Translations under genes and position numbers: made by a program
The notes under the pieces: generated by a model
Seen by the model: only the letters and a program-made list of their open reading frames with translations
Databases searched by the model: none
Told to the model about the DNA's origin: nothing
Part shown: piece after piece, positions 10,951 to 39,317 of the stretch
Layout of the letters: the number at the start of each line of letters is the position of its first letter
Position numbering within the stretch: the stretch's first letter is position 1
Assembly (NCBI GenBank): GCA_016930085.1
Contig: JAFGHO010000048.1
Coordinates: 1-41,667, forward strand
Reading direction: 5' to 3'
Origin: Spirochaetales bacterium
GTDB lineage: Bacteria; Spirochaetota; Spirochaetia; SZUA-6; JAFGRV01
Length of the DNA stretch: 41,667 nt

Positions 10951-11012
10951 CAGAAAAGCCCGTTACGGTGATCTTCACCGTGGCGTATTACCACGATCAA
11001 AAAAGGGATCCT

Positions 11013-12887
11013 ATGAAAAAACCCGAAATATCATTACCGGTCACCGCGCTTATATCGGGGGTCTTCCTCAATGTGCTTTCCTTCTCCTGCGTGAATCCCG
11101 GTGCGGCGGTTATCAGAGAAAACCGGCCAGTTCCTGTCTATGAGGAAGATACACGGAAACCGGTCTTCAGTGTTACACACGGCATTTACGAGTCCGCTTT
11201 TTCGGTCAGTGTGTCTTCGGATACGCCGGGAGCTTTCATTTCCTATACCCTCGACTGCTCGGACCCGCTTGAAGCAACCGGTGCAATCACCCTCCCCTCA
11301 CCGGCCGTCATCCGTATCGACCCGTATCGCAATCCGAACGGAACCCTTCCCGCCGTGATTCTCCGCGCATCAGCCTGCGCGGAAGGGTATAATCCCAGCG
11401 AATCGGTGACACATTCATACCTCTTCCTGAACGACATCGCCTCGTTGTCTCCCAACGAAAAACAGCCCGGAAAATTGTGGCCGGAACAGAACAAATACTC
11501 GAAAGTATATCAGCAATTCGATTACGGACTCGATCCGGAAATTTACACTCAACAGGAATACAAAGAAGACCTCTTTCCCGCCTTCAGGCAGATACCGATT
11601 CTCTCCCTTGTTTCCGGGCATGAAAATTTTTTCGACAGAAAAACAGGGATTTATACAAACCCCGAATATCATGGAAGGGAATGGGAACGGGCCGGCTCGC
11701 TCGAGCTTATCGATGAGGAAGTGGGGTTTCAGATCAACGCCGGTATACGGATTCGCGGGGGATGGAGCAGGCACAAGGACTTTCTGAAACACTCGTTCCG
11801 GCTGTTTTTCAGAAAAGAATACGGCAAGGGTAAACTCGATTATCCCCTCTTTGGCGACGAAGGGGTGGAAAGCTTTGACAAAATCGATCTCAGGACATCA
11901 CAGAACTATTCCTGGGCCAACAAATACGATACCGCGTTTTACAATACCATGCTGCGTGATATATTTTCACGAGATCTGCAGGGTGATATGGGACAGCCGT
12001 ATACGCGAAGCGAATATTATCACCTTTTTCTCAACGGTTGTTACTGGGGATTGTACCAGACACAGGAAAGGCCCGATGCCAGGTACGCGGCCGCGTATTT
12101 CGGTGGTTCGGTAGACGATTATGACGTCATCAAGGTCGATGTCGGTGAACGATGGAATATGTATAAAACAGAGGCGACCGACGGTACCACGGAAGCCTGG
12201 CGAAGCGTATACGATCTCGCTCGGGCCGGATTTGCCTCCGATGAAGCATACTTTCGTCTTGAAGGCAGAAACGGCGAGGGAAAACGTGAGTCCGATAAGG
12301 CGGTGCTTGTCGACATCGATAATCTGATCGATTTCATGATCATCGTTTTTTATACGGGAAACTTCGACTGCCCCCTCTGTAAATTCCGCGGCGACCGCGA
12401 CCCGAACAATTTCTATGCTATATATAACAGAACAGACAACGACAGGGGGTTTTTCTTTCTGGTTCACGATGCGGAACACTGTCTTTTTGTCGATCCGGTT
12501 GCCGTCGGAACAGGGCTGTATGAAAACCGGGTCGATCTTATAAGAAGTTTCCCGCGGTTCGAAAAATTCACCCCACAGGACCTTCACAACGCCCTGGTAA
12601 AAAGCCCCCGTTACAGAAAACGCTTCGACGAACGGGTCAAAAAACATTTTTCAGGCGATGGGGCGCTTACGTATGAAAACAACCTCGCCCGTTTCAAAAA
12701 AAGAATGAACCGGATCGATCTTGCGATCATCGCCGAATCCGCCCGATGGGGCGACGGGAAACGGAACAAGCCCATGACAAAAGAAAACTGGGTGTGGGCG
12801 GTAAAGCAGATACTCGAAGAGTTTTTTCCGAAACGCACCGCCATCGTTCTGGAACAACTCGAAGCGGCCGGGCTGTATGTGCCGTGA
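11013..12887 (+). CDS. CotH-kinase family lipoprotein with chitobiase-like N-terminal domain
   Basis: 624 residues from ATG 11013, with AAGGGAT upstream. Signal peptide ends in the lipobox LSFS-C26, so the protein is likely lipid-anchored outside the inner membrane. Residues about 45-140 resemble the C-terminal Ig-like domain of chitobiase (VSVSSDTPGAFISYTLDCSD, then PAVILRASACAEGY). The remainder is a CotH domain: FQINAGIRIRGGWSRHKDF, HSFRLFFRKEYGKGKLDYPL, EYYHLFLNGCYWGLYQTQER and FFLVHDAEHCLF. CotH of Bacillus is an atypical protein kinase acting on spore-coat proteins; non-spore-formers also have the family, sometimes in polysaccharide-linked surface proteins. Target here unknown. It converges with the REC-HATPase gene. 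Confidence 0.88.
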   Translation: MKKPEISLPVTALISGVFLNVLSFSCVNPGAAVIRENRPVPVYEEDTRKPVFSVTHGIYESAFSVSVSSDTPGAFISYTLDCSDPLEATGAITLPSPAVIRIDPYRNPNGTLPAVILRASACAEGYNPSESVTHSYLFLNDIASLSPNEKQPGKLWPEQNKYSKVYQQFDYGLDPEIYTQQEYKEDLFPAFRQIPILSLVSGHENFFDRKTGIYTNPEYHGREWERAGSLELIDEEVGFQINAGIRIRGGWSRHKDFLKHSFRLFFRKEYGKGKLDYPLFGDEGVESFDKIDLRTSQNYSWANKYDTAFYNTMLRDIFSRDLQGDMGQPYTRSEYYHLFLNGCYWGLYQTQERPDARYAAAYFGGSVDDYDVIKVDVGERWNMYKTEATDGTTEAWRSVYDLARAGFASDEAYFRLEGRNGEGKRESDKAVLVDIDNLIDFMIIVFYTGNFDCPLCKFRGDRDPNNFYAIYNRTDNDRGFFFLVHDAEHCLFVDPVAVGTGLYENRVDLIRSFPRFEKFTPQDLHNALVKSPRYRKRFDERVKKHFSGDGALTYENNLARFKKRMNRIDLAIIAESARWGDGKRNKPMTKENWVWAVKQILEEFFPKRTAIVLEQLEAAGLYVP

Positions 12888-24231: not shown

Positions 24232-25971
24232 TCACTTAAGTTCGACCGGCAGTCTGCCTTCGGGTGTATAGTCGCCGGCAAGGACGGCGAACCCGGCCTT
24301 GAATGAATCCTCTCCCGTCCCATAGACGGCGATCGCCGTTTCGACCCATGGCGCTTCCCGGAGATACACCGGGGTAAGCGACGAAACGACGATGACGGAT
24401 TTTCCGAATTGTCGTAATGATTTGAGTATTTCCAGACTACTCGGGTTGACGAGATGAAAGATGACGGTATCGCTGCTTCGGACAAGTTTCCCGATGGAAA
24501 CACAATCATTCCGTTTCGGCGTGACTGAGGGATAATATGAGTATTCGTATGCCGCTGCTTCCGGAAAACGTCTGCGTCCTGCTTTGATAAAATCGCTGTA
24601 CTGGCTGACAAGAACTATCTTTTCGTTTTTCCGGGGTTTATAGGGAACCTTCGCGTCTCTTATGATGGTAACACTCCTGCACACATGCTGAAAAACAGCC
24701 TCTTTCGATTCGGTTTCCTGAATCCTGATGATTTTCTCAACCGCGTGTTCATAATCCGGAAAAACGGGAAAAGGATGATCGCCCTTGAACGCGGCCGTTT
24801 TACATGCCAATACTCTCCGGACGGCTTCCTTAATTCTCGCTTTGAACGATCCGTCATTTTTAACAAAATGCAATAAGGAGTTCCATACACGCTCCTGAAC
24901 CTTCGGGGTATGAGAGATGAGGATCATATCACACCCGGCAAGGAACGCGTTTTTGGCCGCATCGGGAATATTCTCGCCCCCCCTTCGTGCACCGTACATT
25001 TCGAGGTCGTCGGTCACTACAATACCGGTAAACCCAAGGCGTTCGCGCAGCAGAGTCTTAAGCAAAAAACGTGAAGTGGTGGCCGGAATGTGTTTCCCGG
25101 TAATTTCAGGATAAGCGATATGACCGGTCATAATTGCGGGTATCCCTTCACGAATCAGAAACCGATAGGGGACGAGTTCACGTTCCCACAGCTGTTTCTC
25201 GCTGATATTTATCTCCGGAAGGCACCCGTGGGAATCCTCCAAAGCCGCGCCATGTCCCGGAAAATGTTTTGCCGTACAGATGATTCCCGCCTTTTTCATA
25301 CCGCGGTAATAGGCGAGTGCATCGAGACCCGCTGTTACCGGATCCGAAGAAAACGAACGCGGACCGATGGCGGTATTGTCCGGATTCGAATACACATCCA
25401 CTGTCGGGGCGAAATTCATATTGATGCCCAAAAGCGCAAGCTCTATCCCGATATAATAACCGGTCTCAAATGAATCCGCCGGCAGGGGGCTTGCGCCCAG
25501 AGCGAGATTGCCCGGAACGGTAATCACCTCGCCAAAAATATGACGCACCCACCCTCCTTCCTGGTCTGTTGAAACAAAGAGGGGAATTCCGAACCGACGA
25601 CCGGTCGCGAGCAGCTGGAGATCGTAAATATCTTTTGAAAGCGAGGTCAGATCGTCTAAATTCCGACTGAAAATCTTGAGACCGCCGAGATTACGGTGAG
25701 TGATCCATTGTTTGATGTCGTCCGAGGGGCGTTTTCCGATATAACCGAGGAAAAAGACCTGACCGAGCAATTCTTCATCCGACATGTGATCGATGATTCC
25801 CGTCGCAAGTTGCCCGGCGGGTAGATTGTCCGGGAATGAGGGTACAGCGGCCGCGCCGGTTGAACATACTGCAAGAAAAAACAAATACAGCATACGTACG
25901 GCCATCGGTATTCCATATGCCGTCACCCCGCGTACCATCAACTTATGTGCCCTCTCTTCAGGTGCATTCAT
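24232..25971 (-). CDS. Secreted glycoside hydrolase family 3, beta-N-acetylhexosaminidase (NagZ-like)
   Basis: Up to 579 residues. ATG 25971 lies 17 nt after the tatQM stop; an inner ATG at 25905 (MAVRMLYLFFLAVCSTGAAA) would give a standard signal peptide and may be the true start. Catalytic domain: STDQEGGWVRHI, NMNFAPTVDVY, AKHFPGHGAALEDSHG (235-249) with the Asp246/His248 acid-base dyad special to NagZ-type GH3, and the nucleophile in GIVVTDDLEM (D321). A C-terminal GH3 domain (about 450-579, VIVVSSLTPVYLREAP, GRLPVELK) makes it like the larger Bacillus NagZ. It should release N-acetylglucosamine from muropeptide or chitin fragments outside the inner membrane. It is the last gene of the TRAP operon, which suggests the transporter handles a related product; that is inference. 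Confidence 0.9.
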   Translation of the reverse strand: MNAPEERAHKLMVRGVTAYGIPMAVRMLYLFFLAVCSTGAAAVPSFPDNLPAGQLATGIIDHMSDEELLGQVFFLGYIGKRPSDDIKQWITHRNLGGLKIFSRNLDDLTSLSKDIYDLQLLATGRRFGIPLFVSTDQEGGWVRHIFGEVITVPGNLALGASPLPADSFETGYYIGIELALLGINMNFAPTVDVYSNPDNTAIGPRSFSSDPVTAGLDALAYYRGMKKAGIICTAKHFPGHGAALEDSHGCLPEINISEKQLWERELVPYRFLIREGIPAIMTGHIAYPEITGKHIPATTSRFLLKTLLRERLGFTGIVVTDDLEMYGARRGGENIPDAAKNAFLAGCDMILISHTPKVQERVWNSLLHFVKNDGSFKARIKEAVRRVLACKTAAFKGDHPFPVFPDYEHAVEKIIRIQETESKEAVFQHVCRSVTIIRDAKVPYKPRKNEKIVLVSQYSDFIKAGRRRFPEAAAYEYSYYPSVTPKRNDCVSIGKLVRSSDTVIFHLVNPSSLEILKSLRQFGKSVIVVSSLTPVYLREAPWVETAIAVYGTGEDSFKAGFAVLAGDYTPEGRLPVELK

Positions 25972-25988: not shown

Positions 25989-28352
25989 CTACGTACCGCC
26001 GCTCCGCACCACCTTTGTTTTCCAGGATAATCCCCGAGGTTTTCCGATCACATTGTCCTCATCGTCGATCAGGGATATGAGGCGTATATCGAATGAGGTT
26101 TTGCCGCTTTTTTTGACAATCCAGGTGATGGTACAGACATGATTATCCCGTCCGGGATTTTTCCCGAACATATCGATCCCCTTTATAACGAGTACGCCGC
26201 CGGTCCGGACGCCGGCTGAGGTGACGAATCCGTTTATCCCCGGAATCACCCCATTATTTCCCGTTTCACCATCCGGTTCGACCATCTCAGGATCATAGAC
26301 AATCTCGAGTTCGTACGATGTAAGCTTCTGCGTTCCTGTGTCCATACGCAGATCGGTAATCAGGTTTCCGCTATCCGCGGATTCCTCTCCACCGGCCCCC
26401 CCCTCCACTTCGACCAGCCAGACATCGCCCGGGTTGTTGACGGGTTTGAGAAACATTGTCGTCACCGGTGGGACATAGGTAATAAAGAGAACGGCAATCA
26501 GCATTGCGACAAAAAAAGGCAATACCTGTTTGTAAATTTTCGTCAGGGGTTGTCCGAAACAGTACGAGGCGTAAAAGAGATTGAGTCCGACCGGCGGGGT
26601 GAGATAACCGAGCTGGAGGTTTGCGAGAAAGATGATGCCGAGGTGCACCGGATGGATGTTGTAGGCGACACCCAAAGGAACGATAAGGGGAACGACGACA
26701 AAAATAGCGGCATAGATGTCCAGAAAACAGCCGGTAATGAGAAGACCGATGTTGAGAAGCAGAAGGAAAACGATAGGTGACTGAATATATGTCCCGCACC
26801 ATTCGACAAGTTTCTGGGGAATCTCCTGGTCGATGATATAATAGGACAGCCCCTTGGCAACCGCCATGATAATGATGATTCCCCCGATGATGGGAATCGC
26901 CTTCAGAAATACATTCGGAAGCTCCCTGATTCTGATATCTTTATAAAGGAAAACTTCAATCAGAAGGATATAAAGGACGGTAATCGCGCTGGTTCCCACC
27001 AGGGTGGTAAAGCCGCTGAAAAAACTAATCGAAACGATAAAGGGAAGCGCGATTTCCGGGAGTGAGTTCCGAAGGGGAATCAGGGTGTCTTTCGCCTTGA
27101 AGGGAATTCGTTCGATTCTTTTTTTCACCGCATGCCAGATCCCCATACAGGAGAGGGTGATCACCAACAGCGCGCCGGGAACGACGCCGCCGATAAAAAG
27201 ATCCTTGATACTGATCGTCGCGGCCACACCATACATGATCACGGGAAGACTCGGGGGAAAAAGGAGGCCTACGCTCCCGGCGCCCGATAGCAGTCCGTAG
27301 CTGAAGTCTTCCCGGTAATTCCGTTTGATAAGGGCGATGGAAAGAAGCGCCCCGAGTGCCAGAATCGTCACCCCCGACGCTCCGGTAAACGTGGTAAAAA
27401 ACGCGCACACGATCACGGTGACGATCGCGAGTCCGCCCGGAAGCCACCCGAGCAGTGTCCGGAACAGCCTGACAAGCCGTTCGCTTGCCTTGCTTTCGGC
27501 AAGGAGAAAACCGGCAAGGGTAAAGAGGGGAATCGCTGGGATCTCATAGCCGGAAAGAACTTCGTAGACTTCATGGGGGATATCGCTCAAAGGCAGTCCC
27601 GCGCCGGAAAACAAAAGAACGGCCAGCCCGCCCAGAACGATAAAAATCGGTGCACCGAAAATTCCCGCTGCAATGAGAATGATCGAAGCCGGCCAGATAA
27701 AGACCGACATAAAAGGATCGAAAAAGGAGTTGAACCCCTCGATAAACCCTTCCATGTTTTCATACATGGTATAATCCTCCGGGTTTATCAACAGGGATAT
27801 TTCCTGTATTTCGTAGAATATAATGTGGAGTGAGAGGAATAATCCGATAAGGACACCGCTCGCGACAATGAGGGTTTCCTTGAGGTTTTTGCCCGCCTGG
27901 CGAATAAACCGGATCGTGATAATGAAAAACCCTAACGGCATAATTGCCAGAAACAAATGAACGGGAAAAATACCGACAGTTTTGCCGATATCAAACCCCG
28001 CGCGGAGGAATCGAATGGAAGCAACCGTGAGGACCGTACAGATTGCCGTCGATACGATACCCGTTCCGATCTTGATCCACGAACGGAAAGGTTCTGCGAC
28101 CATTTTTATACCGATTCCCAGTGAAAGATGTTTTCCTTCCCTGGTCGTAATCATCGCCCCGAGAAAAGCAGTCCAGAGGACAAAATGCTGAATATATTCG
28201 GATGCCGCCGGAATCCCAGCGCTGAACCTGCGCAGAATGATCTCGATAAAAAGAATGAGAACGATGACAAGGAGAACGGCGATCGCCGCGTAGTTCTCGA
28301 TGAGGCGGAAAATCGACTTCTTCACCGGATTATCGCTGTTTTCTGTATTCAT
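25989..28352 (-). CDS. TRAP transporter fused small/large permease (TatQM) with C-terminal cohesin-like domain
   Basis: 787 residues. Residues 1-165 are the four-helix DctQ part (ILRRFSAGIPAASEYIQHFV, typical Q motif). A linker with extra helices leads to DctM (about 215-636): IPAIPLFTLAGFLLAESKAS, FTTFTGASGVTILALGALL, LSGAGSVGLLFPPSLPVIMY, LQLGYLTPPVGLNLFYASYC, ending ITYVPPVTTMFLKP. Family DctM stops here; this protein continues about 150 residues (637-787) as a beta-rich domain with TSYELEIVYDPEMVEPDGE, GINGFVTSAGVRTGGVLVIK, VCTITWIVKKSGKTSFDIRL and SLIDDEDNVIGKPRG, matching the strand pattern of cohesin-like domains. The start overlaps tatP by 23 nt. Order tatT-tatP-tatQM matches T. pallidum. 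Confidence 0.88.
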   Translation of the reverse strand: MNTENSDNPVKKSIFRLIENYAAIAVLLVIVLILFIEIILRRFSAGIPAASEYIQHFVLWTAFLGAMITTREGKHLSLGIGIKMVAEPFRSWIKIGTGIVSTAICTVLTVASIRFLRAGFDIGKTVGIFPVHLFLAIMPLGFFIITIRFIRQAGKNLKETLIVASGVLIGLFLSLHIIFYEIQEISLLINPEDYTMYENMEGFIEGFNSFFDPFMSVFIWPASIILIAAGIFGAPIFIVLGGLAVLLFSGAGLPLSDIPHEVYEVLSGYEIPAIPLFTLAGFLLAESKASERLVRLFRTLLGWLPGGLAIVTVIVCAFFTTFTGASGVTILALGALLSIALIKRNYREDFSYGLLSGAGSVGLLFPPSLPVIMYGVAATISIKDLFIGGVVPGALLVITLSCMGIWHAVKKRIERIPFKAKDTLIPLRNSLPEIALPFIVSISFFSGFTTLVGTSAITVLYILLIEVFLYKDIRIRELPNVFLKAIPIIGGIIIIMAVAKGLSYYIIDQEIPQKLVEWCGTYIQSPIVFLLLLNIGLLITGCFLDIYAAIFVVVPLIVPLGVAYNIHPVHLGIIFLANLQLGYLTPPVGLNLFYASYCFGQPLTKIYKQVLPFFVAMLIAVLFITYVPPVTTMFLKPVNNPGDVWLVEVEGGAGGEESADSGNLITDLRMDTGTQKLTSYELEIVYDPEMVEPDGETGNNGVIPGINGFVTSAGVRTGGVLVIKGIDMFGKNPGRDNHVCTITWIVKKSGKTSFDIRLISLIDDEDNVIGKPRGLSWKTKVVRSGGT

Positions 28353-29322
28353 CCAGTAACACCTTTATCATCTCATAGGCTTCCGCACCGAACTCCTCGT
28401 CGATAAGACGTTGAAAATTGGCATCGACCACCGCCTTCCATTCCCTGACAGCTTGTTCCGGTACCGGATTGACGACGAGTCCGTTCGCTTTCATGATTTC
28501 CATGACCTCCTCGTCAGTTCTCCGGGTCTCTTCGTTGAGGGTTTTTCCCGCTTCACGGGCGGCATCGAGGAGGCGCGGCCGCAATGTTTCGGGGATCTTG
28601 TCCCACGTGCTTTTCGCGATCACGATCCCCGCTATCATCGGCGCCCAGTTCATCCCGCACATGTGATTGGCGATCCCGAACCACTGGTACGCGGCAGCCG
28701 AAAGCGGTGTCGCCATGACCGTCTCGATCATCCCGCTTTGAAGCGATGTCATGACGTCGGGCATCGGTAACGGAACGGGCTTGAATCCCGCCTCTTTCCA
28801 TATCTGGATCTCGTTCGTATTATCCTCCCATACCCACATCTTTTGTTCCTTGAGATCCGAGGGCCGGACAACCGGTTTTTTGGAAAAAAAATGCCCCCAG
28901 CCGGCAAACGTCCAGATAATCGGAATGAACTGCTTCTTTGTGAGTTCCTCCTCGAAATGGGGGATCATCCTTTCGAGGACATATTCGAGTTCCGCGTCAT
29001 TGCGAATGAGCATGGGAACCGAAAGCGCCAAAACGCCTTTGGCGATCGTGTTCAGACCGACCGATGTAATGGCTGCCGCGTGCAGCTGTCTGAGCCGAAT
29101 TTTCCTGAGCATGACGGTCTCATCTCCCACGATTCCTCCCGGATAAATTTTTACCTGGACCTTACCTCCGGAAATACTTTTCCACTCGGCCGCGAGCCGC
29201 TTCAGGCATTTATCCCAGGGTGAACCCGAAGGTGCAAGGCTGCCGATTTTTATCGTCAAGCCGAACACCTCTCCCGTAATCAGAAAAAAAAGTATCATAA
29301 GGAACAATATATGTCTTTTCAT
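28330..29322 (-). CDS. TRAP transporter solute-binding protein (TatP/DctP)
   Basis: 330 residues from ATG 29322 (TTG 29328 is a weaker alternative). The signal peptide MKRHILFLMILFFLITGEVFG leads to a DctP fold: LTIKIGSLAPSGSPWDKCLK, VQVKIYPGGIVGDETVMLRK, VGLNTIAKGVLALSVPMLIR, KMWVWEDNTNEIQIWKEAGF and VPLPMPDVMTSLQSGMIETV. The conserved ligand-carboxylate Arg of classical sialic acid or C4-dicarboxylate binders is not obvious at the expected place, as in other TatP proteins, so the ligand may not be a simple organic acid. Two nucleotides separate it from tatT; its 3' end overlaps tatQM. Confidence 0.92.
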   Translation of the reverse strand: MKRHILFLMILFFLITGEVFGLTIKIGSLAPSGSPWDKCLKRLAAEWKSISGGKVQVKIYPGGIVGDETVMLRKIRLRQLHAAAITSVGLNTIAKGVLALSVPMLIRNDAELEYVLERMIPHFEEELTKKQFIPIIWTFAGWGHFFSKKPVVRPSDLKEQKMWVWEDNTNEIQIWKEAGFKPVPLPMPDVMTSLQSGMIETVMATPLSAAAYQWFGIANHMCGMNWAPMIAGIVIAKSTWDKIPETLRPRLLDAAREAGKTLNEETRRTDEEVMEIMKANGLVVNPVPEQAVREWKAVVDANFQRLIDEEFGAEAYEMIKVLLDEYRKQR

Positions 29323-29324
29323 AA

Positions 29325-30266
29325 TCAAAACCCTTCTTCACCGGTATCGTCAAGAATAAAAAAATCTTCAATATGTTCAAGCAGCCATTCAGCCTTCTGC
29401 TGCGCCAGAATATTTAGCAGACGGTTTTCCGTCTCTTCGCTTACATCGATACTCAGGACCTTGTTCAGCAATTCCCGAAACTCCCGGGGATACTGCCTCG
29501 TCACACAGACCGATGTGGCAAGGGCGAGGTGGGGCCCCGCTTTCAGACCTTCCGAATATCGAAGGGCCTGCTCGTAATGAAACCGTGCCTTTTCCTCACT
29601 CCCGCCCATTTCGGCGGGAATGCCGCCGTAATAGGAAATGAGTAATTCGTGGGGAGACCCATTGTCGTATGATTCATCCATTTCAACCACTTTCAGGATA
29701 AAACCGACCGCAACAGGGTAGTCGATCATCAACTCGACATCGAACGGATCCGTGGTCACGGCCCCAAGCCACGCGGCCCCGGCCCAGTAAAGCCAGGGGA
29801 GGTGTTTCCCCTTGATACAAGAGAGGGCTTTTTCATGATTATCTTCTGAAAAAGCGGCATAAAAATCCTTGTTCAGAATGGAAAGCGCATGCATAAGATG
29901 ATGTCTGCCACGGAGATAGAGCTTCTTCGCACGGAGAAGTGCAGCTTCCTTTTTTTCATACTCATCATCCGGGAGCATTTCCGCAGGGGAAACGACATAG
30001 GCAAACGCATAGAGACAGAAGGCCTTGCCCGTTGACAGGAGAAGCTCCGTATTGTCGGGATCCGCTTCCAGAAGTGATTCGTAAAGTTTGAGGGCAAACG
30101 GGAGGGCGTCTCCGATAAGCTGCGGATCGTTGTCCCCGGTAAAGACAGTACTCTCCTCACCGGAAAGCATATCGGCGACCACAGAAACAGCCAGTCTATT
30201 GATCGAACAACTGAAACATAAAACAAGCAGCGACAAACATACGGATATTTTTGCTATTTTTATCAT
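29325..30266 (-). CDS. TatT-type TPR lipoprotein of TRAP transporter
   Basis: 313 residues. GGGAGGT precedes ATG 30266. Lipobox LCFS-C20. The mature protein is all-helical with repeated A-L-x-Y-x-x-A-L-type helices, the TPR-like pattern of T. pallidum TatT (TP0956): LLEADPDNTELLLSTGKAFC, YLRGRHHLMHALSILNKDF, KHLPWLYWAGAAWLGAVTTD (characteristic of the TatT family), ISYYGGIPAEMGGSEEKARF and ALATSVCVTRQYPREFRELL. TatT trimers bind TatP and are thought to assist ligand hand-over outside the membrane. First gene of the operon with tatP, tatQM and the GH3 enzyme. Confidence 0.9.
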   Translation of the reverse strand: MIKIAKISVCLSLLVLCFSCSINRLAVSVVADMLSGEESTVFTGDNDPQLIGDALPFALKLYESLLEADPDNTELLLSTGKAFCLYAFAYVVSPAEMLPDDEYEKKEAALLRAKKLYLRGRHHLMHALSILNKDFYAAFSEDNHEKALSCIKGKHLPWLYWAGAAWLGAVTTDPFDVELMIDYPVAVGFILKVVEMDESYDNGSPHELLISYYGGIPAEMGGSEEKARFHYEQALRYSEGLKAGPHLALATSVCVTRQYPREFRELLNKVLSIDVSEETENRLLNILAQQKAEWLLEHIEDFFILDDTGEEGF

Positions 30267-30297
30267 ATTACCTCCCATAAGGATATCCATACGGGCT

Positions 30298-30327
30298 ATC
30301 ATAACAATACAATACTATTATTGTCCA
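30298..30327 (-). promoter_or_regulatory. Promoter of the tat-GH3 operon
   Basis: On the minus strand TGGACA (30327-30322), 18 bp, TATGAT (30303-30298). Leader of about 25 nt to ATG 30266 with a strong Shine-Dalgarno site. Confidence 0.55.
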
Positions 30328-36510: not shown

Positions 36511-36629
36511 CATCACCTGTATCGGCGATAATAAATGACGATTATCGGGGATATAAAAACAGGTCCGCCTCATGCATATTATAAATAACAGTATTTTACA
36601 TAAATTTATTTACAATGGAGGTATCAATA

Positions 36630-39317
36630 ATGAAAACCGATTCAAAAAATCCCCGGTTTTTCAGTCACCGAATACGCCCGAGGAGAAAAATCACACGCGT
36701 CTGTCTTATGTTTCTTCTGTTGCTCGTCCTCGTTCCTTATCTTTCCGCCGAGCAAAAAAAGATCGCCTTTAACGGCTCGACGCTTTCGATCGTCACCGAT
36801 CCCCTTAAAGCACCCGATAATGTCACGGTCGGAGGATATGTCTGGTTCGACAAGGTCCTGAAAAAAACCGTCGATTCCTCGGGCCGTATCGTCCTCTACG
36901 GGAACATAGGGCTTCGCGTATCGCTCAATGCCGGAACCGTCAAGATATACGGAAAATATCCGGGCGCCGCCTATAAAAAAATCACCGAAGCATCCGCCCT
37001 GCTGCAGAATCCGGCAAATCCGGTCCAGGTGTTCAACAGCGGCGGCGCAATCAGCCATATGGAATGGGCATCTCCGCTGTCCGAACCGGATTTCGAACCG
37101 CAAACCACCGAAACAGGCGGGACCGTCTTCACCTTGAAGGTGGTCTATACCGATGTGCCCGGCTCCCCGATATATACCTGGTATGACATCATCGTCGAGG
37201 ACACCATCCCCGGTTTGATTGCAGGCGGGATTATCGGCGACGAAGGAAACGAACGGCAGCTCGACAACTGCTATCAGATCGACGACGACGGGGAGTTGAA
37301 AAAGTATCCGGCGGACAGCGAACTGGAACAGTGGTATTTATGGAAAAGCTGGCTGGAATATGTTGGTTTTAACTGCGATGAAAGCTTACTCGCCTCATAT
37401 ATTCCGGACGAGACATGGTATGCCGATATAATGACAGAGGACGATCCCCTGACATCCAGCCCCTGCGATTATTCCGCATTCGTCTTTTTCGGATCGAGTG
37501 AGACGGGAACAAAAAAAACGGCCATAACCAAACCCATATTATTTTCCGAAGGAATCGATTTCGAGAACAACCTGTCATGGAGGTTTTACCTCTACAAGCT
37601 GCTGGGACGTTACGGCCTCTGGCGGACCTGCCTTGAACAGGGATACGACATCATCTTTCTCAATTACACGGATTCTCTCAAGTCCCTTCAATTCAGTGCC
37701 GAATGCGTCATCGATGTCATTGAAAAAATCAATGCGGAAAAGGTCCCGGACTCCCGGGGAATCCATAAAAACATTGTCATCGGCGGAAGTATGGGCGGAC
37801 TCGTCTGCCGCTACGCGCTGAAAGTAATGGAATCAGAAGCGTACATCGATGAACAGCAGACAGTCGGAACCGGCGGTATCGTCGGCCATGATACGGAACT
37901 CTTCGTCTCCTTCGATGCACCGCAGCAGGGCGCCAATCTTCCGCTATGCCTTCAGCTTGCCATTGAAGAAATAAACAACTGTATTCCACACGAAGACCTT
38001 GCCGATTTCCGGGCAACAATGCACGCATACGCCCCTAAATCGATGCTGATAAACCATGTCAAGGGATTGATCGACGATAACTACAAAGCGGAGTATCCCT
38101 CGTATCCGCATGCATATCGCGATTGGTTTTTGAACGATCTCGAAGCCCTTCGCACAGAGGAAGACGGATCAAGCGTATATCCGCGGGATTGCAGAAGCGT
38201 CGCGATGGCCAATGGAAGCGGATACGGAAGATCACAGCATATCGACGGCTTGACCATGGGGGAGCATACATTACTTTTCGGAACCGTTATCGGCGATTTG
38301 GTTTATTTGGGTTATTCTCTGGGAGAATCACTGCCGCTGATTGTGACCGACGCTGCCAATGTTCCTGAAATTCTGTTTCCACCTCTTTTGATTACCGACT
38401 TATTTTTACACAAGACCGTCCATTATGATAAAACTCATCTCGATGACCTGATTCCCATTGACAGCTGTCCCGGATCGACCACGCCCTTTATAAAAATGTT
38501 TGCCGACGCGATCAATGATGTCGACGGATGTGCAGGTATATTTGCTTATGCCGCATACACCTTCCCCGGCGTCACCTACATGCCCACGGTAAGCGCACTC
38601 GATATCAGGCACATGGATGGAACCCCCTGGAATGTCAACGGTAACCTCTCAGAAATCCCCAACATCCTTAACAAAACCGCTTTCTACGACATCAGATGGG
38701 AACCCGATAACAACGACCATGCTTCTATATCACCTCAATGTGCCAATTTCCTTTTGAAATACGTATCATTGACCGAACTTGACACCCTCGGCGGGCATAT
38801 CGGCGACGGCGACGTCTACCCGCCGGACAATCCTGACGGTATCCTCACCGCTTTTGACATAGAAGCGATCCGGGATTATATCGATGAAGCGCCCGGTTCG
38901 GATTTCACCGCCATGCAACTGCTGCGGGCCGACGCCAACAATGACGGGTATCTTTCCGTCCACGATATCGCGATTCTGGAAAACTCGATCGCGTGCGACA
39001 TGAACGGGAACAAAGCCGGAAAATACATAGTGGGCGATCTCGACAATAACATGATAATAAACGAAGACGATCTTGCCGCGCTGCAGACACTCCTTGAGAC
39101 CCCAGGCGCCGTCTCGTATCCACCCTTAACCGTCGAACAGGTACTTGCCGACGTAAACGGCGACGGCTTCACGAATGAAGACGATACGGTCTGTCTCGAG
39201 AATTTCCTGTTGGAAAGCCAATTGAATACCGGTATCGAGTTGTTATCCGAAATCGAAAACTGCAGGCGCATCTGGTTCATTCCCCCGCTTCTGCCGTCTG
39301 TCGGAGAACTGGATTGA
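36630..39317 (+). CDS. Secreted lipase-like alpha/beta hydrolase with dockerin-like repeats
   Basis: 895 residues; GGAGGT precedes ATG 36630. A basic N-region and a hydrophobic core (VCLMFLLLLVLVPYLSAEQ) give a signal peptide. Residues about 30-230 are beta-rich and unassigned. The hydrolase part has GYDIIFLNYTDS and the nucleophile elbow NIVIGGSMGGLVCRYAL with Ser387, like triacylglycerol lipases and PGAP1-type esterases; a later NNDHASISPQ could supply the His. Residues about 720-870 hold four Ca-loop/helix repeats of dockerin type: DNPDGILTAFDIEAIRDYI, DANNDGYLSVHDIAILENSI, DLDNNMIINEDDLAALQTLL and DVNGDGFTNEDDTVCLENFL. That suggests attachment to a cohesin-like partner or a calcium-stabilised tail. 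A strong terminator follows. Confidence 0.82.
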   Translation: MKTDSKNPRFFSHRIRPRRKITRVCLMFLLLLVLVPYLSAEQKKIAFNGSTLSIVTDPLKAPDNVTVGGYVWFDKVLKKTVDSSGRIVLYGNIGLRVSLNAGTVKIYGKYPGAAYKKITEASALLQNPANPVQVFNSGGAISHMEWASPLSEPDFEPQTTETGGTVFTLKVVYTDVPGSPIYTWYDIIVEDTIPGLIAGGIIGDEGNERQLDNCYQIDDDGELKKYPADSELEQWYLWKSWLEYVGFNCDESLLASYIPDETWYADIMTEDDPLTSSPCDYSAFVFFGSSETGTKKTAITKPILFSEGIDFENNLSWRFYLYKLLGRYGLWRTCLEQGYDIIFLNYTDSLKSLQFSAECVIDVIEKINAEKVPDSRGIHKNIVIGGSMGGLVCRYALKVMESEAYIDEQQTVGTGGIVGHDTELFVSFDAPQQGANLPLCLQLAIEEINNCIPHEDLADFRATMHAYAPKSMLINHVKGLIDDNYKAEYPSYPHAYRDWFLNDLEALRTEEDGSSVYPRDCRSVAMANGSGYGRSQHIDGLTMGEHTLLFGTVIGDLVYLGYSLGESLPLIVTDAANVPEILFPPLLITDLFLHKTVHYDKTHLDDLIPIDSCPGSTTPFIKMFADAINDVDGCAGIFAYAAYTFPGVTYMPTVSALDIRHMDGTPWNVNGNLSEIPNILNKTAFYDIRWEPDNNDHASISPQCANFLLKYVSLTELDTLGGHIGDGDVYPPDNPDGILTAFDIEAIRDYIDEAPGSDFTAMQLLRADANNDGYLSVHDIAILENSIACDMNGNKAGKYIVGDLDNNMIINEDDLAALQTLLETPGAVSYPPLTVEQVLADVNGDGFTNEDDTVCLENFLLESQLNTGIELLSEIENCRRIWFIPPLLPSVGELD

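Follow-up and report, generated by a model that had tools for sequence, protein, structure and literature searches.

Cohesins are known as extracellular assembly modules. The fused TRAP permeases HiSiaQM (7QE5/8THI), FnSiaQM (8Y4W) and IseQM (9PYM) carry a DctQ part followed by a DctM part, joined by a connecting helix, and the known fused permeases end at their last helix. HiSiaQM has 15 membrane-crossing helices, and natural fusions of a periplasmic P domain to the C-terminus of the M subunit exist (PMC9352664). The authors of the FnSiaQM study assigned its N-terminus to the cytoplasm and its C-terminus to the periplasmic side, a placement which was not directly observed (PMC11801797). TatQM, a fused TRAP permease of a Spirochaetales bacterium, shares the domain order and the connecting helix of these proteins and can be compared with two further systems. 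As in the TRAP M-P fusion of Acidaminococcus intestini (G4Q5D7; PMC9352664), the C-terminus of its M part continues into a soluble domain predicted to be periplasmic; in A. intestini, however, this domain is the substrate-binding protein, whereas TatQM carries a putative cohesin and its binding protein TatP is separate. With the membrane- or wall-anchored cohesins of cellulosomes, namely anchoring scaffoldins and autonomous cohesins (for example 4N2O of R. flavefaciens), it shares a single cohesin at the cell envelope, but here a polytopic transporter serves as the anchor, and the domain is predicted to point into the periplasm of a diderm and not to the outside.

The gene tatQM (P0001; 25989..28352, minus strand) lies in a window of 41,667 nucleotides, the whole stretch of contig JAFGHO010000048.1 analysed here, and encodes an intact ORF of 787 aa without an internal stop. 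Pfam, NCBIfam and alignment to the solved permeases all placed DctQ (residues 30-154; 27891..28265, minus; PF04290, E 3.6e-15) and DctM (residues 225-629; 26466..27680, minus; PF06808, E 2.1e-76; TIGR00786 above cut-off) in one chain. TatQM matched HiSiaQM, FnSiaQM and IseQM both by sequence and by predicted structure (ranks 1-6 in Foldseek), and the match ran to residue 633-634. An earlier note on this DNA had set the end of DctM near residue 636, with about 150 residues following, and this was borne out, since the Pfam DctM match stops at residue 629 with nothing beyond it. Its span for the extension (25989-26441) covered the right region and began one codon late, as residue 637 corresponds to 26442-26444; the sequence strings quoted for residues 637-787 were present. 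By alignment, the last helix is followed by a short linker, residues 637-648 (LKPVNNPGDVWL; 26409..26444, minus), the end of which is probably the first strand of the cohesin. The last domain of TatQM, assigned below to the cohesins, spans about residues 649-787 (25989..26408, minus). Adjacent to tatQM is tatP (28330..29328, minus; PF03480, E 3e-39), encoding a DctP-type substrate-binding protein, as is expected of a TRAP system, and beside it tatT (29325..30302, minus; PF16811, E 5.3e-80), encoding a TRAP T-component. The locus thus reads tatT-tatP-tatQM, with a gene for a GH3 glycosidase with signal peptide (24232..25971, minus; PF00933, E 3.3e-74) directly downstream, an order kept in the related genome G004.

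The extension on its own gave no match in Pfam, NCBIfam or the PDB (phmmer); its failure to reach the Pfam Cohesin (PF00963) cut-off gauges the sensitivity of that model, not fold or function. Used as a lone query, it retrieved some 30 further domains from its own genome (G000; best E 4.8e-23), the orthologous fusions in G002 (E 6.2e-32) and G004 (E 4.7e-27), and between 25 and 60 domains each from three genomes of its family (E to 1e-32), with almost no matches elsewhere in the class. Some of these own-genome homologues, on contig C104, pass the Pfam Cohesin cut-off, and 24 of 54 aligned copies of the domain matched PF00963 at E <= 0.5 (best 6.5e-10). A 54-row profile searched against the PDB ranked Clostridium cohesins first at a modest E of 0.008, mixed with chance matches to inositol dehydrogenases; the latter had been the sole PDB matches of a first profile with long flanks and were discarded. 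The extension was modelled as beta-rich, with low confidence (pLDDT about 35-64), and when the C-terminal part of the full-length model was compared with solved structures, the best matches were cohesins, namely the C. perfringens cohesin-like module 2JH2, R. flavefaciens cohesin 8AJY and CaCohA2 6KGF (Foldseek probability 0.98-1.00). The closest of these, 2JH2 and 6KGF (1.00), are extracellular proteins with an identity to the TatQM domain of only 10-18%. An AlphaFold model of the domain from two sequences (pLDDT 56) ranked C. thermocellum cohesin complexes first in Foldseek with poor scores, and comparing its profile with one type I cohesin gave a match that was in register, though weak (probability 25). 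Because some of its homologues pass the Pfam cut-off, and given the profile and low-confidence model matches, the extension is assigned by homology to the cohesin family, its nine-stranded cohesin fold being putative. The cohesin-like C-terminal domain proposed in the earlier note was upheld in this sense, and no non-cohesin fold emerged; of the HMM check it suggested, the direct search yielded nothing and recognition by PF00963 came through the homologous domains.

We surveyed 30 TatQM orthologues from related genomes and 80 loci from genome contigs for the extension. The statement that the last helix is the usual end of TRAP large subunits held for 27 of the orthologues, which end at most 18 residues beyond it, and for 79 of the loci, which end at most 10 residues beyond it. 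Among all TatQM-like sequences inspected, the extension was confined to TatQM itself and its orthologues in G002 and G004, the exceptional locus (L228, from the Spirochaetales MAG Zod_Metabat.855) being the same ORF as that of G004. Long open frames in G006, G011 and G016 were rejected as further cases, their extra length being N-terminal and their C-termini normal, and a collection scan with P0001 as lone query gave no match. The fusion junction is identical in the alignment of the three proteins, and in a tree of 54 domains the three fusion cohesins fall on one branch (support 99/93). While the extension diverges faster than the transporter part, it has been kept in frame and in pattern across two genera, with no stops and a pN of 0.26-0.43 (about 0.3-0.6 of pS) against a saturated pS, a saturation which made dN/dS incalculable for most pairs. 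Because of the shared junction, the limited pN at saturated pS and the single branch, the fusion is taken, from these sequence comparisons, to have arisen once and to have been retained under constraint. G003 has a full cohesin and dockerin set, about as numerous as in its relatives, but its TatQM is devoid of a cohesin; on this gene content, the fusion would be either younger than the cellulosome or lost in G003.

The membrane orientation of TatQM was predicted from the solved permeases and from its charges. Positive charge marks the loop that precedes the connecting helix, while the next loop has no K/R and eight D/E, a pattern which fits a cytoplasmic N-terminus and a periplasmic C-terminus. 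Since an Omp85 protein and a secretin are encoded in these genomes, the cells have an outer membrane. By homology to FnSiaQM and HiSiaQM, with the natural M-P fusions and the charge pattern pointing the same way, the cohesin is thus predicted to be periplasmic. The supposition that the domain lies outside the membrane was therefore supported, and a cytoplasmic placement did not result.

The genome in which TatQM occurs is a draft assembly of 135 contigs, and ORF counts given here cover the extracted contig stretches. It holds at least 152 Dockerin_1 matches (E <= 0.01); a dockerin match was found in 153 extracted ORFs, some of them short or overlapping frames, so that TatQM's own organism has about 150 Dockerin_1 ORFs, and Pfam was run on the 136 that reach at least 200 aa. 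Those scanned included 16 with GH5 and 11 with GH9, together with GH3, 6, 10, 11, 12, 16, 26, 30, 43, 44, 45, 53, 62 and 88, and also carried cellulases, esterases, xylanases, pectate lyases, expansin-like domains and carbohydrate-binding modules. Cohesins were found in 22 extracted ORFs (32 domains in all), among which a scaffoldin-like ORF of 1724 aa (C104:60679-65850; L083) has seven cohesins and an internal dockerin. A multi-cohesin scaffoldin is thus encoded together with dockerin-bearing plant-wall enzymes, and the gene set amounts, on sequence grounds, to a cellulosome-type inventory in a diderm spirochaete lineage, found also in G002, G003 and G004. A literature search of partial coverage returned no description of spirochaete cellulosomes, and no paper treating a TRAP transporter, a cohesin and a dockerin together; a spirochaete lineage with an inventory of cellulosome size (about 150 dockerins) is hereby brought to attention. 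Five dockerin-bearing serpins, two peptidyl-arginine deiminase-like proteins and several leucine-rich-repeat proteins were also seen among the cellulosomal enzymes of this genome.

At least four single-cohesin proteins of the genome have a lipoprotein signal (C117_25504, C56_19992, C56_20750 and C82_22154), with more in the relatives, and envelope-anchored cohesins are a theme in this lineage; two of the four (C56:19992 and C56:20750) are adjacent. No polytopic membrane protein other than TatQM is encoded by the extracted cohesin and dockerin ORFs, as late hydrophobic stretches of the dockerin ORFs lie mostly within the dockerin itself. Most of the roughly 150 dockerin proteins start with an N-terminal signal-like helix; many have the dockerin N-terminally, right after the signal peptide, and many others have it at the C-terminus.

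Two residues of C. thermocellum CipA cohesin 2, Asn37 and Asp39, touch the dockerin's recognition motif (PMC5772552). By the register of the weak profile comparison (probability 25), the equivalents of Asn37-Cys38-Asp39 in TatQM are S679-Y680-E681 (26310..26318, minus), a triplet which reads A-Y-G in most cohesins of the lineage. At the two contact-equivalent positions, A (80%) and G (76%) predominate across the 51 other cohesins, while the three fusion permeases have S, H or Y and E. All three fusions further share N at position D707 and K at position S724, and position F726 is changed too; the cohesin core residues are kept, with 24-27 of 41 consensus positions retained. The dockerins vary little: 188 of 226 halves have I-V as their recognition pair. 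From these altered contact residues we infer that the TatQM cohesin would not engage the bulk dockerins in the usual manner, and we expect its ligand to lie outside the bulk enzymes; such a specificity would also spare secreted enzymes from being caught in passage.

Docking of TatT, TatP or a dockerin-bearing enzyme had been suggested in the earlier note. Pfam found other domains and no dockerin in TatT, TatP and the GH3 neighbour, and these were rejected as dockerin carriers; docking of these three by a normal cohesin-dockerin contact was thus not supported. The enzyme part of the suggestion fared unevenly, with many such enzymes in the genome and the contact positions altered in the TatQM cohesin. 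The only other gene of the cohesin and dockerin system seen in the window encodes an exported protein of 900 aa (36615..39317, plus; PF00404, E 5.7e-10) with two divergent C-terminal dockerin regions (38829-38990 and 39033-39212), whose recognition pairs are, for example, VH and ED. It has an orthologue in G004 and none in G002, and its only claims to be a candidate partner are its nearness and its divergent sequence.

The explanation we favour, at roughly even chances, is that TatQM gained a cohesin once and that this would serve as a periplasmic docking site for one dedicated partner, aiding uptake. The permease would have taken up the domain from the cellulosome-type cohesin pool of its own lineage; tethered by its short linker to the final M-domain helix and lying in the periplasm, the cohesin would keep the partner next to the transporter's entrance, where a product of the partner might be handed on locally, or the partner itself might act as a substrate-delivery factor. 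Such a partner is probably not a bulk cellulosomal enzyme because the contact positions differ, and could be a protein with divergent dockerins, for example the 900-aa protein, or a TRAP component. In favour of this explanation stand the homology to Pfam-recognised cohesins, the model matches to solved cohesins, the genome's cohesin and dockerin ORFs, the single origin, the constrained pN, the predicted periplasmic C-terminus, the outer membrane, the lipoprotein cohesins of the envelope and the altered contact residues common to all three fusions. Against it we count the failure of the extension in family scans, its low pLDDT and faster evolution, the G003 genome without the fusion, and the 900-aa orthologue absent from G002. 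If docking is true, cohesin-dockerin assembly would extend to the periplasm through a cohesin on an inner-membrane transporter, and an importer would be directly linked to a chosen partner held beside its entrance; the system predicts a cohesin specificity that differs inside and outside the envelope. More tentatively, and with somewhat less than even confidence, we propose a broader scheme of periplasmic transport-coupled docking, in which a secondary transporter of a diderm spirochaete recruits a dedicated dockerin partner via a cohesin of changed specificity, with assembly taking place both inside the envelope and in the extracellular space.

Other explanations of the fusion were weighed against this one. 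The draft state of the assembly raises the possibility of an assembly or frameshift artefact, which we rejected as barely credible, since two other assemblies, G002 and G004, contain orthologous fusions of 61-63% identity that share the junction, and the order tatT-tatP-tatQM recurs in G002. A functionless gene-end fusion carried as a tolerated passenger would agree with an extension limited to three permeases and diverging faster than the transporter, but it is improbable given that frame and pattern persist across two genera whose synonymous distance is saturated, and that pN is held to the fraction of pS given above. An unlikely reading, though distinctly more plausible than these, is that the domain no longer docks any dockerin and is a periplasmic Ig-like module that would stabilise TatP or TatT at the permease or govern the elevator motion. 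The natural fusions of P domains to the M C-terminus (PMC9352664), the changed dockerin-contact positions and the adjoining tatT and tatP genes would all suit such a module; the retained cohesin core with a shared set of new residues in the three fusions, and the occurrence of the domain's lineage relatives in a cohesin and dockerin system, speak against it.

Marginally less probable still is that the TatQM cohesin binds ordinary I-V dockerins, and would recruit cellulosomal enzymes staying or pausing in the periplasm, so coupling late glycan breakdown to uptake. Partners would be plentiful, as the many dockerin proteins with a signal-like helix pass through the periplasm, and the overall cohesin pattern is kept. 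However, the residues at the Asn37 and Asp39 equivalents, positions which touch the recognition motif in C. thermocellum (PMC5772552), are not the usual A and G, the substitutions at D707 and S724 recur in all the fusions, and nearly all dockerins share the one hydrophobic pair, so that unselective binding would detain enzymes on their way out. The dedicated-partner explanation is thus the one to which we give most weight.

Elsewhere in the window, at 10968-12887 on the plus strand, a protein with a CotH kinase domain and a chitobiase C-terminal-like domain is encoded, and a CotH protein bearing a dockerin is also encoded in the same genome.
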